Assembly (NCBI RefSeq): GCF_003384035.1
Contig: NZ_QQAK01000009.1
Span: forward strand, 1-64,000
Source: Sporosarcina sp. BI001-red
GTDB taxonomy: Bacteria; Bacillota; Bacilli; Bacillales_A; Planococcaceae
Reading direction: 5' to 3'
Length of the DNA: 64,000 bases
The stretch's first letter is position 1. The number at the start of each line of letters is the position of its first letter. The position numbers were made by a program, and so were the translations under genes. A model generated the notes under the pieces. It ran no database searches and had not been told where the DNA came from. It saw only the letters and a list, made by a program, of their open reading frames with translations. Shown here in pieces: positions 20,348 through 25,198 of this stretch.

Positions 20348-20420
20348 GATTCCTTAGCTCAGCTGGGAGAGCGCTACCTTGACAGGGTAGAGGTCGCTGG
20401 TTCGAGCCCAGTAGGAATCA
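20348..20420 (+). tRNA. tRNA-Val (GAC anticodon)
   Basis: Complete cloverleaf: acceptor GATTCCT/AGGAATC with discriminator A, D arm GCTC/GAGC, anticodon arm CTACC-TTGACAG-GGTAG with anticodon GAC, T arm GCTGG-TTCGAGC-CCAGT. CCA is not encoded. Its 3' 45 bases recur exactly at 22106-22150 and in degraded form near 23433, marking it as an integration target. Confidence 0.96.
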
Positions 20421-20516
20421 TTGGGTGCCAAACCCACGGAAAGACCGTAGGAACACGGTTTTTCTCCACAAGCAGTCCTATTAGGCCGTATGCCTAGGGG
20501 CTGTTTTTTTTGTGGT
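20376..20516 (+). repeat. tRNA-Val 3' end plus structured tail, copy A
   Basis: From the anticodon stem of tRNA-Val through TTGGGTGCCAAACCCA (20421-20436), a small hairpin ACCGT/ACGGT, then CAGTCC...AGGC-CGTAT-GCCT...GGCTG and eight T. The last hairpin with its T run should act as the tRNA terminator. Bases 20376-20424 equal 22106-22154 exactly (49 bases). Confidence 0.9.
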
Positions 20517-20519
20517 TTT

Positions 20520-21100
20520 TTAGCACTTCTCCGTTGCCGAATTACTCTGGAACCCCTTTTGTATAGCGCGATGAAATACATTAGCTACATCTCTAGATGT
20601 ATTAGAGATTAAATGAAGGTAGAATTCCAATGTGATCTTAGGATTCTCATGACCGAGTCGTACTGATATATTCACAACGTCGATACCTTCAGAGATTAGA
20701 ATGGATGCATGAGTGTGAATAACATGAAAGCGAATCTCCGTGATGTTGGTTTTTTTTATTAGCCGTTTCATTAATTTCTTGGATTTTGAAAAAATCCTGT
20801 ATTCGTGCAAATGACCAGATTCTGTTCCCGATATATATCTCTTACGAGTGCTCTCCATTCTTCTTGCTCCTTTTACGCTTTATAAGTTCATTCATTACGA
20901 AATCAGGTATCCGTATTTGACGTATAGACTTTCGTGTCTTTTGCGCCGTAAGAAAATATTCACTTTTAGGTAGATAGTAAGGGAATGATTTATGTGAATA
21001 ACTCTCTTAGTAAAGTCAATATCATTCCACTATAGCCCCAAAAGCTCTCTACGCCTCATTCCGATATATATAGCTAGTAGAAAGGTTAGCGAGTCTGCTT
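20520..21100 (-). pseudogene. Decayed tyrosine recombinase (prophage integrase)
   Basis: Fragments of one integrase in different frames. Near 21045-21095 the minus strand reads TFLLAIYIGMRRRELLGL then an in-frame TAG and WNDIDF (box I with its arginine). Near 20870-20950 another frame reads KTRKSIRQIRIPDFVMNELIK. The frame 20520-20858 reads GTESGHLHEY, then HVIHTHASILISEG and VRLGHENPKITLEFYLHL. The H-x-L-R of box II is damaged (the arginine is missing from FHVIHTHAS), while the tyrosine is kept. It points towards the tRNA, as integrases next to an attachment site commonly do. Not functional. Confidence 0.85.
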
Positions 21101-21252
21101 AAGCAAAAGCTGGATCTTAAATTTGGTGTATTTTGCGAATAAAACTCGAGTGTAAACATTTCAAGCAATAAAATTTTTAAAAAATCTTCTTTTCACTGCC
21201 TGTACCATCAGTAAAAAATAGCATATATATAATTCAAAGGAGGAGAAATAAA

Positions 21253-21393
21253 ATGTGGAAAAATAATTTTACAATTAAAGGTACTACATGAAATACGGTA
21301 CACTGTAAAAATGTTTCAGACGGTAGTGATATATTTTGGGTTAAAAAAGAAAAGAGTCTCGTGAAAGGAGATATTACAAAAAAGATAAAGTAG
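21253..21393 (+). pseudogene. Small phage-type gene interrupted by TGA
   Basis: ATG 21253 follows a strong AAAGGAGGAGAAATAAA site. The frame reads MWKNNFTIKGTT, then TGA, then continues open as NTVHCKNVSDGSDIFWVKKE and on to TAG at 21391-21393 (46 codons in all). A single TGG to TGA change would explain it. The next gene starts 8 bases later, so the arrangement is that of a compact phage operon. Read-through cannot be excluded. Confidence 0.55.
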
Positions 21394-21401
21394 GTGACAA
21401 C

Positions 21402-21818
21402 ATGAGCGACATGTTAAAAAAACTAAGTGAATCTATTGATAATCACGATACTAAAATCACTGTTTTAGATGGTCGAGTAGTCGGATTAGAAGAGTTAACA
21501 GGAATGCTTATAGAAAAGGATCGGCAACACGAAGAAAAACTTCATCAGATGGAGACGCAGAATCTTAAGTTGGAAAACACAGTGCTTTCCACAAGTCGTG
21601 AAACACAGGAAATTGTGAAAGCGCAGGCAGACAAGATGTACGAGCTTGCTAAGTCATCCATGAGCTATCAAACTGCTTCTGCGGAACAGGCTCATGAATT
21701 ACAAATGGCTAAATTGAGCGCTTGGTCTACATTCGCTCTTAAAATGAGCGGGGCAGTCGCAGGGTTAACTGGCACAGGGGGCTTGGTTTACTACTTGTTT
21801 ACACATTTTTTAAAATAA
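21402..21818 (+). CDS. Phage-type coiled-coil protein with C-terminal membrane segment (XhlA-like)
   Basis: 138 residues: a long hydrophilic coiled-coil region (DRQHEEKLHQMETQNLKLEN) and one C-terminal helix (MSGAVAGLTGTGGLVYYLF). The architecture is like XhlA-type proteins of phage lysis cassettes, though I see no strong signature. ATG 21402 has AGGTGA upstream. Placed between the broken small gene and a holin-like gene, 13 bases before the latter. Part of the tRNA-Val prophage remnant. Confidence 0.6.
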   Translation: MSDMLKKLSESIDNHDTKITVLDGRVVGLEELTGMLIEKDRQHEEKLHQMETQNLKLENTVLSTSRETQEIVKAQADKMYELAKSSMSYQTASAEQAHELQMAKLSAWSTFALKMSGAVAGLTGTGGLVYYLFTHFLK

Positions 21819-21831
21819 AGGAGACGATGAC

Positions 21832-22008
21832 ATGACAGCAGTACTGATTTTTTCAAAAATCTTGGCACCCATCAATTTAGCGGTGACAGAACTATTTAAA
21901 CGAACATTCAACCTACCTAAAACGATCAACCCACTCATCGTCTTTGCGGTGGGTCTTTTTATTGGCTTCGCAGCATCACCATTAGTCAGCGTTGGATCTC
22001 ATACTTAA
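21832..22008 (+). CDS. Short holin-like protein
   Basis: 58 residues with two hydrophobic stretches (VLIFSKILAPINLAVTELF and NPLIVFAVGLFIGFAASPL) separated by KRTFNLPKTI, the pattern of small phage holins. ATG 21832 follows AAGGAGACG. It ends within 100 bases of attachment copy B and may have lost its C-terminal part; phage holins of this look are usually longer with a charged tail. The expected neighbouring endolysin is 540 bases away, on the other side of copy B. Confidence 0.6.
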   Translation: MTAVLIFSKILAPINLAVTELFKRTFNLPKTINPLIVFAVGLFIGFAASPLVSVGSHT

Positions 22009-22105
22009 AAATTCGAGTCATTTCAAAGTAATTCATAGTACGCTTTGATTGTTGTTCAATTAGCTATTAGTACTCTTCTGAAGTCTTTAAAACACATACA
22101 TTATC

Positions 22106-22250
22106 ACCTTGACAGGGTAGAGGTCGCTGGTTCGAGCCCAGTAGGAATCATTGGATGCCAAACCCATGGAAGTATCGTCGAATCAACGATAAATCTCCAC
22201 AAAAAAGCAGTCCTATTTGGTCGTATGCCTAGGGACAACTTTTTGTGTGT
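22106..22250 (+). repeat. tRNA-Val 3' end plus structured tail, copy B
   Basis: Bases 22106-22154 are identical to the tRNA-Val 3' half and following five bases. The tail then diverges but keeps TTGGATGCCAAACCCA (22151-22166), a hairpin ATCGT/ACGAT where copy A has ACCGT/ACGGT, CTCCACA, and GCAGTCCTATTTGGTCGTATGCCTAGG-like sequence. The terminal hairpin is damaged and its T run is shorter. Copy B cannot form a tRNA (no 5' half). Confidence 0.9.
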
Positions 22251-22547
22251 TCAAGACCAACTGCTAAGCAATTCTTTAAAGACGACTCGCGTTTTTCATC
22301 AACTTTCATCCTAATTTATGAATTTATGTTCAATGGCTTCTTCATTTTTGTGATATGTGGACAATAACACGACATGGTAAAAAAATAAATCTCTTGAGAA
22401 CGCCAGCATCGGGTGTTCTAACACAAGGTTGTAAAATTGAGCTCTCGAAGAAAATACAATTAAAATAATTTACCTTAGTTCTAGCACGCATGTCTATGTC
22501 TAGGAAGAAAAATATTCATAGATATAACATAAAGGAGGAAAAAGAAA
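22251..22547. other. Gap between attachment copy B and the endolysin gene
   Basis: No gene is supported. An open frame at 22045-22314 only reads across the tRNA fragment and has no ribosome site. AT-rich, with no clear promoter or terminator; the endolysin ribosome site AAAGGAGG lies at the right end. Probably deletion-scarred phage sequence. Confidence 0.5.
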
Positions 22548-23321
22548 ATGAGCAAAATCTTTATTGATCCGGGCCATGGTGGTCACGATTCAGGGGCAGT
22601 TGGAAAGAGGTCAAAGGAAAAAGATAATGTGTTGAAAGTCGGGCTCAATTTGAAAGCGTTACTTGAAAGCTACGGGCATACCGTCAAATTGTCCCGCTCA
22701 ACGGATGTGTTTATTGCATTATCTGAGCGCGCACAGATGGCGAATCGTTGGGGGGCTGACTACTTTGTGAGTTTGCATAATAACTCGGCTACAAGCGATG
22801 CGTCGGGGTTTGAAACGTTTATTTACAACGGTAACGTCAGTAGTTCTACGACCAAGTTGCAAGCAGCTATCCACAACGCGATTTCAAAAGAAATTGGCAT
22901 TCGCGACCGAGGCATGAAGCGTGAGAGCCTTGCAGTATTACGTGAATCAAGTATGCCTGCTGTGTTGATTGAGTATGCGTTTATTTCAAATACTGTCGAT
23001 GAGACCATCTTGATCAACCAAGTGGAGAAATTGGCACAGTTAACTGCAAAAGGGATTGTCGCTCAAGCCGGCATAGTTAAACCTACAGCTCCTACACCTG
23101 GAGCAACACAAAAGGAGGAACCCAAATTGTACAAACCAAGCGCTTCAGCAATTCTTAACTCAACAGCAACTGTTTTAAAACGTCTCGAACAAAAAGTAGA
23201 CAATCCATTAGATCCTCAATGGCGAGAGAAGCTTTTGAAAGGTGAGTTAACGGAGTCCGATGCTATCGGATTGTTGTATGTGGCTATTGATCGTGGTCAT
23301 ATTGTAGGGAAAGCAGAGTGA
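22548..23321 (+). CDS. N-acetylmuramoyl-L-alanine amidase (phage endolysin, Amidase_3)
   Basis: Zinc amidase that cleaves the MurNAc-L-Ala bond. Residues 1-175 hold the catalytic domain: IFIDPGHGGHDSGAVG with the first zinc histidine, the glutamate/histidine region ADYFVSLHNNSA, and MPAVLIEYAFISN with the late catalytic glutamate. A Pro/Thr linker (KPTAPTPGATQKEEP) leads to a C-terminal region of about 60 residues that probably binds the wall. No signal peptide, fitting holin-dependent release. ATG 22548 has AAAGGAGG upstream. Intact frame of 257 residues although its surroundings are decayed. Confidence 0.92.
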   Translation: MSKIFIDPGHGGHDSGAVGKRSKEKDNVLKVGLNLKALLESYGHTVKLSRSTDVFIALSERAQMANRWGADYFVSLHNNSATSDASGFETFIYNGNVSSSTTKLQAAIHNAISKEIGIRDRGMKRESLAVLRESSMPAVLIEYAFISNTVDETILINQVEKLAQLTAKGIVAQAGIVKPTAPTPGATQKEEPKLYKPSASAILNSTATVLKRLEQKVDNPLDPQWREKLLKGELTESDAIGLLYVAIDRGHIVGKAE

Positions 23322-23432
23322 GTGATTCGAAGAAAGGAACAGTAAATATTGAGATTATACTATTCTTAGTTTAATTTCTCTTTATCCTCAAAACTTCTAG
23401 TCTTCCGTTACCTATAGAATACACTTGTAAAA

Positions 23433-23567
23433 GCCCTGTCCTTAAGTGTTTCGACCCATAGAGAAACATTGGTTGCCAAACCCACGCCAAGTACCGACAG
23501 GACAATGATACATCCCCCAAGAACATACCTATTAGGCTGGATGGCTAGGCTCTGTTTTTAGTATGTT
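23433..23567 (+). repeat. tRNA-Val 3' end plus structured tail, copy C (degraded)
   Basis: GTTTCGACCCATAGAGAAACATTGG corresponds imperfectly to the T arm and acceptor end; then TTGGTTGCCAAACCCA (23469-23484) and CCTATTAGGCTGGATGGCTAGG near 23528-23549 followed by a T run match copies A and B. It is the outer right boundary of the prophage remnants. The gap 23322-23432 holds nothing else recognisable. Confidence 0.75.
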
Positions 23568-23611
23568 AGGGCTAATCCGGAATTTAAATAAGAACGAGCC
23601 AACTGAAATAT

Positions 23612-23676
23612 AGCAAAGGGTAATTCATGCTAGCCACAACTTCTTGTCGTTGGTTAGCTGAATTACCCTTTTTAGA
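23612..23676 (-). terminator. Terminator of the membrane protein gene
   Basis: Arms AAAGGGTAATTCA (23615-23627) and TGAATTACCCTTT (23659-23671) with a partly paired centre; both strands carry flanking A/T runs. Confidence 0.75.
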
Positions 23677-24228
23677 TTATGCAGTCTGTACTTTTGTTGA
23701 AAAATAGAGAATAAAGAATAATTCTGCGACTAGTAACAGCATCATGGAAACATGGGCAGCCGCAGGAAGAGTGAAGAAAAGAATACCTGTAATGGTTAGT
23801 AGAATGAGTAGCAGTGCAGGAAATTTTTCGAGACTGGATATGTTAGAATAAGAGGTGAACTCATCCTCGTTATTACGGATAGCAAGGAAGAGTTTCTGAA
23901 TGATATAGAAAATCATGATCATACCAGCCACCGCTAGTGTTACTAGACTTAATGCGAAGATAGTTCCGATTCCGGTGGATAGTGAAATCGTTTTTATTGA
24001 ATGACCAGTTCCATTTAATAACGCAAAGCCAATGCTGTGCACTATCATGACAAGAACAAAAGGCTGGATGCTTCGAATGGCAGTTATTTCTCTACCTAGA
24101 CTTCTTAATCCAACGTACATCAAACTATAGCCGATAACATTCGTAATGTAGAACAAGAAATCAGTATCCAGGAATTGCAAATTGAATTTAGCGAATACAA
24201 ACAGTACGCCCAGTATGAAAAGTCCCAA
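23677..24228 (-). CDS. Hypothetical polytopic membrane protein
   Basis: 183 residues with about five or six hydrophobic helices (for example LFILGVLFVFAKF, PFVLVMIVHSIGFALL, IGTIFALSLVTLAVAGMIMI, FPALLLILLTITGILFFTL, HVSMMLLLVAELFFILYF). No motif recognised. The start at 24228 is not preceded by a clear ribosome site in what I can see, so the N-terminus is uncertain. It lies immediately outside attachment copy C. Confidence 0.6.
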   Translation of the reverse strand: MGLFILGVLFVFAKFNLQFLDTDFLFYITNVIGYSLMYVGLRSLGREITAIRSIQPFVLVMIVHSIGFALLNGTGHSIKTISLSTGIGTIFALSLVTLAVAGMIMIFYIIQKLFLAIRNNEDEFTSYSNISSLEKFPALLLILLTITGILFFTLPAAAHVSMMLLLVAELFFILYFSTKVQTA

Positions 24229-24352
24229 TAGATTCCTCCAATTGATAAGAGTATGTGTACATAGTTCAATGCATTAATTTTACAATATTCTTACAAATAA
24301 AACAAGGTGATTTCTAAGAAGTCGTTACCTACTAGCTAAGGAGTTTTCACAA

Positions 24353-25198
24353 ATGAATATTGAACTGAAGCTATCATTCCCATACGATTTTGATCGTGCG
24401 CTTGAAAGACTTTCAGGAACGCCGGTAAACGCGGTAGATCTTCAGCAGCGATTGACGCGCGTGCCTATGGAGGCGGGCAATCTGGTAACGGTTCAAGCAA
24501 CAGGGACATTACAAGAGCCAACTTTCCTAATTGAAGGATTAAAGGACGATGAGCAACTCACTCATCTTAAGTGGATTTTTCACTTTGAAGAATCTTTAGA
24601 AGGCATTGCAGCTCATTTTACCCAAACCGATCTTGCACCCATCTTTCTGGAACATATCGGTACACCGCTCGTCAGAAGCTTTTCACTTTATGGAGAGCTG
24701 ATGAAGAGCATCATCCACCAGCAATTAAATATGAAGTTTGCAAATACACTGCTTATGAGGTTTGTAGAAACATTTGGCTTTCAGCAAAAGGGAGTATGGA
24801 GATATCCAGATCCCCAAAGGATTGCCGCGGTTACAGTCGAAGAACTGCGCGAAATGCAGTTCAGTACTAGGAAAGCAGAATATGTCATTGGCCTTTCGCA
24901 AGCAATTACATCCGGGGCATTAAACTTGGAATCGATGCGAACGAAAAGTGATGAGGAAGTAACGACAGAACTCGTTGCTTATCGAGGAGTCGGACCTTGG
25001 ACCGCTCAAGGATTTCTAATGTTTGGTCTCGGTAGACCGAACTTGTTTCCAACTGCGGACATCGGACTTCAAAATGCACTAAAAGTACTTTGGAAATTAG
25101 ATCTCAAACCGACACAAGAGGAAATACGAGCTCGTTTTCCAGAGTGGTCTCCCTATCTAAGTTATGCAGCTTTATATCTTTGGAGAAGTATTGAGTGA
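24353..25198 (+). CDS. DNA-3-methyladenine glycosylase, AlkA/HhH-GPD family (YfjP-like)
   Basis: Base-excision repair enzyme that removes alkylated purines. 281 residues: an N-terminal domain of about 100, then the HhH-GPD domain with SIIHQQLNMKFANTLLMRF, the hairpin VAYRGVGPWTAQGFLMFGLG and catalytic aspartate in FPTADIGLQNAL. ATG 24353 has AAGGAG at about 9 bases. Monocistronic, ending at a terminator. Closest known relative in style is B. subtilis YfjP. Confidence 0.88.
   Translation: MNIELKLSFPYDFDRALERLSGTPVNAVDLQQRLTRVPMEAGNLVTVQATGTLQEPTFLIEGLKDDEQLTHLKWIFHFEESLEGIAAHFTQTDLAPIFLEHIGTPLVRSFSLYGELMKSIIHQQLNMKFANTLLMRFVETFGFQQKGVWRYPDPQRIAAVTVEELREMQFSTRKAEYVIGLSQAITSGALNLESMRTKSDEEVTTELVAYRGVGPWTAQGFLMFGLGRPNLFPTADIGLQNALKVLWKLDLKPTQEEIRARFPEWSPYLSYAALYLWRSIE

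Follow-up and report, generated by a model that had tools for sequence, protein, structure and literature searches.

In the window, the stretch of 64,000 nucleotides from Sporosarcina sp. BI001-red that was analyzed here, the DNA between a complete tRNA-Val(GAC) gene (copy A), an exact partial repeat of it (copy B) and a worn one (copy C) is best read as an integration hotspot with the nested scars of two elements, the outer of which, ending at C, is the older; we give this reading a probability of about 0.72. As such, the locus is nothing unusual among tRNA genes at which elements accrete, and it shows one tRNA gene gathering layered mobile elements and how little of them survives. The ladder of copies being ordinary, what is worth follow-up is the trailer RNA behind the tRNA; this conserved trailer and its exchange by integrating elements may be the part that a specialist would not expect. 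The features are collected in Table 1.

Table 1. Features of the tRNA-Val ladder and its right flank, in window positions
Feature	Position	Strand	Basis
tRNA-Val(GAC), complete, host half of copy A	20348-20420	+	ARAGORN; Rfam RF00005, 62.2 bits
49-base exact core, copy A	20376-20424	+	Identical to 22106-22154
Trailer A	20421-20512	+	Conserved behind tRNA-Val in relatives; hairpin 2 covariation
Trailer A, hairpin 1	20422-20436		
Trailer A, hairpin 2 (loop AGGAAC)	20439-20464		
Trailer A, terminator	about 20471-20511		
Dead tyrosine integrase, residues 215-396 of a 410-aa relative, N-terminal half gone	20520-21089	-	Pfam Phage_integrase, E 3e-8; tblastn with G045 integrase, E 2e-35
Small gene remnant, early in-frame stop	21254-21393	+	Read from sequence
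XhlA-position protein, 138 aa, intact	21402-21818	+	Position and homologues
Holin, truncated	21832-22008	+	phrog_1299, E 1.2e-4
End arm of inner element, left of core B	22005-22105	+	Likeness to G044 orphan copy
49-base exact core, copy B	22106-22154	+	Identical to 20376-20424
Trailer B, hairpin 2 stem kept, otherwise nearly invariant positions lost	22151-22247	+	Trailer comparison
N-acetylmuramoyl-L-alanine amidase, phage endolysin type, 257 aa, intact	22548-23321	+	Amidase_3, E 5.7e-50; phrog_435, E 8e-61
Copy C, outermost scar: worn T-arm end of tRNA, trailer and terminator	23447-23567	+	Alignment, BLAST, shuffles
Native right flank: 183-aa membrane protein gene (-) and AlkA-type DNA glycosylase (+)	23677-25198		AlkA just behind the single trailer in G046, G079 and G008

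An earlier note on this DNA took copy A for the complete tRNA and copy B for an exact repeat of its last 45 bases plus four more, and both descriptions hold. Overlooked at that stage was the continuation of the repeat past the tRNA: the likeness between A and B extends about 100 bases further, with 83% identity over 144 bases, through a conserved trailer of two hairpins and a terminator. In copy B, all 45 tRNA bases are present, three trailer positions that hardly vary elsewhere are gone, and the core starts in the anticodon arm, one usual crossover region in tRNA genes (PMC4383910). Copy C, described as a worn copy of the tRNA end, is a true member of the repeat, scoring 74 against a maximum of 26 among 2,000 dinucleotide shuffles, but the signal comes mostly from the trailer, the tRNA part alone being matched by 31 of the 2,000 shuffles, and BLAST homology begins only at about tRNA position 51. 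It may originally have held only the T-arm end of the tRNA, or the remainder may since have been lost. Conserved trailer positions have been lost in B and in C. Since B keeps all of its tRNA bases and wear is much heavier in C, the older scar is probably the distal segment, in agreement with the order first proposed.

The segment between A and B measures about 1.7 kb and that between B and C about 1.3 kb, and both are remnants. As possible prophage remnants, they comprise an integrase remnant, a gene in the XhlA position and a holin in A-B, and only an amidase in B-C. The dead integrase and the broken small gene reported for A-B were both recovered, the former as the C-terminal half of the protein, spread over three frames with stops. 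Upstream of the small gene, positions 21198 to 21261 match the region upstream of a solo amidase in the relative G010 (L034, 9881-9943) at 77% over 64 bases. The gene proposed as XhlA-like does occupy the XhlA position, and its homologues precede a holin in Sporosarcina phage Lietuvens, G022 and G070, but profile searches of the 138-aa product against Pfam and phrog gave no XhlA family match. Identity is 76% to the G070 homologue, 74% to that of the G022 prophage and 47% to ORF29 of Lietuvens (MT104122), where the XhlA-position protein, holin and endolysin follow the tail genes in the same order, although within a phage of 64.5 kb.

The holin-like gene was likewise confirmed, but in truncated form: it encodes 58 aa, compared with 88 to 89 aa in the holins of G022 and G024, and is cut after about 50 residues, where an arm of about 100 bases begins. 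Arm, core and trailer of B together match an orphan copy in G044 with 72% identity across 228 bases, and because the three recur there as a set, the arm looks like the end of an element; the junction between holin and arm looks like a deletion scar. At a distance of 317 kb from tRNA-Val, the G044 orphan (L131, G044:C11:289347-289564, minus strand) neighbors four tandem tyrosine-recombinase-like genes and is followed by a large repeat protein. The endolysin noted in B-C proved to be an intact Amidase_3 protein, 75% identical to the solo amidase of G010. A DegV-like gene, which in G010, G020, G007 and G044 separates the outer trailer from the gene for the 183-aa membrane protein, is missing from the window between copy C and the native flank (23567-23677).

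Related genomes show the site both empty and filled. In G046, G079 and G008, the empty site consists of a transporter, two small genes, tRNA-Val, one trailer and AlkA, and its flanks are those found on both sides of A to C in the window. Three copies stand at tRNA-Val in G010 and G022, two and a trailer fragment in G045, two in G055, G070, G009, G059 and G080, and one with a trailer fragment in G020; an integrase lies directly behind the tRNA in the window, G045, G055, G070 and G076. Together with the left end of a temperate phage at tRNA-Val in G070 (integrase, metalloprotease, repressor, antirepressor, RecT and small terminase), these empty sites and recurrent ladders support site-specific integration at this gene, as had been supposed.

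The occupants themselves are diverse. That of G045 is, by reading, a metal-resistance island of 60.6 kb (L105-L108, G045:C30, about 100.3-161.1 kb), in which metal-transport and redox genes are numerous and which also has an intact integrase and an excisionase-like gene; that of G055 is a 29.7-kb element. The G010 ladder holds a phage-type integrase remnant and the solo amidase, followed by an ABC-transporter segment, and the occupants of G020 and G007 carry, by reading, coat and multicopper-oxidase-like genes. At least two integrase lineages use the site, one in the window, G045, G055 and G076 and the other in G070 and G010; the window remnant is 58% identical to the G045 and 54% to the G055 integrase, both from islands, versus 32% to the phage integrase of G070. 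A general integration hotspot is a safer reading than a prophage-only site. Of the two tandem prophage integrations that the earlier note had put forward, integration stands and two elements are likely, but the occupants are not all prophages (G045, G010, G020 and G007) and the window integrase is nearer to those of islands; for a second prophage in B-C, the segment offers one gene, the amidase. Among the relatives, no complete prophage ending in holin, endolysin and attR at tRNA-Val was recovered, the one in G070 being split over contigs, with the left end at tRNA-Val and the XhlA-holin pair on another; a scan of IMG/VR for the core-trailer junction gave no match.

Compared with known systems, the arrangement resembles the islands and prophages in tRNA genes, tandem arrays included, described for Islander (PMC4383910), which likewise have a complete tRNA, displaced 3' fragments downstream in the same orientation and a rebuilt target; an integrase remnant next to the tRNA is common to both. 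Copies A and B show this pairing of complete tRNA and downstream fragment, C shows it more weakly, and the empty site is found in relatives. The window differs in that both segments are shorter than the lower limit of 2 kb used there, in that only A-B has an integrase, a dead one, and in that the repeat runs on past the tRNA through the conserved trailer. Tandem accretion of IMEs, ICEs and CIMEs (PMC5704250) likewise involves a decayed resident element and another that enters the same target, whereas phage-type genes remain in the window and no conjugation or mobilization genes were seen.

We propose that an outer element would have integrated at tRNA-Val, leaving C as its far end. A later inner element, bearing a tyrosine integrase of the kind seen in G045, G055 and G076, the 3' half of the tRNA and a trailer and terminator of its own, would have entered the same gene, so that the tRNA was rebuilt at A with the element's trailer and the tRNA half and older trailer were pushed out to B. 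The inner element would then have lost most of its interior and whatever lay between the middle of the holin and the element's end arm, and the outer one all but an amidase. We infer this order of events, the origin of the B-C amidase in a separate element and the arrival of trailer A with the inner element. The proposal is supported by the trailer stems, of the element-side type in A and the native type in B, by the recurrent ladders and empty sites, by the intact G045 integrase and by the temperate-phage set of G070. Against it stand the lack of an integrase and the single phage-type gene in B-C, the position of the lysis halves on either side of B in the order of one intact cassette, the scarcity of tRNA sequence in C, a trailer order in G010 opposite to the rule given below, and the failure to recover a complete prophage with such an end structure.

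The order of the lysis genes could also be explained by one prophage, with a single XhlA-holin-amidase cassette ending at C, which was split later by an inserted arm-core-trailer unit (B). In the intact G022 prophage the holin and amidase nearly touch, and the window pair flanks B in that same order; moreover, such a unit can sit away from a tRNA, since G044 holds a free-standing copy next to recombinase genes. We nevertheless regard this explanation as quite improbable: a search past B did not recover the missing end of the holin, the 295-base stretch from B to the amidase (22253-22547) gave no hit in a homology search and matches no cassette, the exact 49-base identity of A and B fits ordinary attR formation, and ladders with different cargo in each segment do occur in relatives. 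Alternatively, the segments may never have been prophages and could derive from integrative islands that acquired single lysis genes, like the island occupants of relatives. The closeness of the window integrase to the island integrases of G045 and G055, and the metal-resistance rather than phage content of the G045 island, are consistent with this, but the XhlA-position gene and the holin occur together in phage order, and the former has its nearest homologue in G070, where a temperate phage occupies the same tRNA (on a separate contig); an origin in islands is therefore very improbable.

A further explanation concerns B-C, which might be a gene maintained by the host for its own use and not a relic. 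The amidase of this older and more worn segment is intact, whereas the nearby integrase is dead; the G010 ladder, too, has kept an intact solo amidase. Between these two amidases, pN is 0.16 and pS is 0.73, a ratio that would equally arise from evolution as a phage gene before decay and in which silent changes are close to saturated; dN/dS was rejected as a discriminator, being unable to tell phage selection on the amidase from host selection. Since, in addition, the solo copy of G007 carries a stop, we consider retention by the host unlikely, although host selection is a possible cause of the intact reading frame.

The trailer behind tRNA-Val consists of hairpin 1 (GGGU-GCCAA-ACCC), hairpin 2 with the loop [AC]GGAAC, and a terminator. 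Covariation in hairpin 2 is evident from a mean uninterrupted stem of 8.2 pairs, counted from the loop outward, versus 3.5 (maximum, 5.1) when the 3' arms were dealt among the sequences, with the reservation that the 49 distinct copies are related and this control flatters the result. The stem types are plain to the eye (GTATCGT/ACGATAC, GGTTGT/ACAACC and AAGCTTT/AAGTTT); RNAalifold misses hairpin 2 because the MAFFT alignment on which it was run is out of register. Most Sporosarcina genomes with the two-loop pattern have a single occurrence of it, whereas the ladder genomes G010, G022, G045, G055 and G070 have more; its place is always at tRNA-Val except for three seemingly unrelated hits. 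Beyond Sporosarcina, it is found in other genera of Planococcaceae, a few Bacillus-type genomes and genus g16 of another family. A search of Rfam 15 gave no match up to an E value of 1 except the tRNA and implausible weak hits, and nothing on the element was found in the open-paper literature on tRNA-linked motifs. A precedent for a tRNA 3' external transcribed spacer acting as a regulatory small RNA is 3'ETS-leuZ of E. coli (PMC8166272), a structured or stable RNA that immediately follows a tRNA as part of its transcript; the window trailer, a putative RNA known from sequence, has the corresponding position but differs in its two covarying hairpins, which belong to a single tRNA-Val and occur in Bacillales.

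Trailers next to the tRNA and displaced trailers have different affinities. Between G070 and its near relative G046, the tRNA-adjacent trailer is identical at 75 of 91 positions and the displaced one at 91 of 91; between G022 and G008, the far trailers agree at 88 of 90 and the near trailer at 76 of 91. Both patterns are those expected from integration of an element that has a trailer of its own. In the window, trailer A has the CCGT stem of the near copies in G070 and G022, and B has the native ATCGT type, but overall identity does not cleanly sort the two, both being nearest to G044. A rule of foreign near and native far trailers holds in G070 and G022, and by stem type in the window, and is reversed in G010; G045 and G055 are uninformative, both of their copies being alike. 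Judged from these comparisons, some elements bring their own version of the trailer and displace the native one. More tentatively, and with less than even confidence, the tRNA-Val(GAC) of Planococcaceae may be transcribed together with an undescribed functional RNA, defined by the two hairpins with their GCCAA and [AC]GGAAC loops, for which many integrating phages and islands would carry a working replacement, swapping the RNA yet keeping its structure. If the trailer is functional, elements at tRNA-Val restore not only the tRNA but also an RNA linked to it, and natural before-and-after pairs for testing this are provided by the displaced copies. That the trailer is indispensable was ruled out by G080, whose element brought none. 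There (L111), a 7.3-kb element supplied the tRNA end without a trailer, and the tRNA is now trailerless, with the native trailer at the far end.
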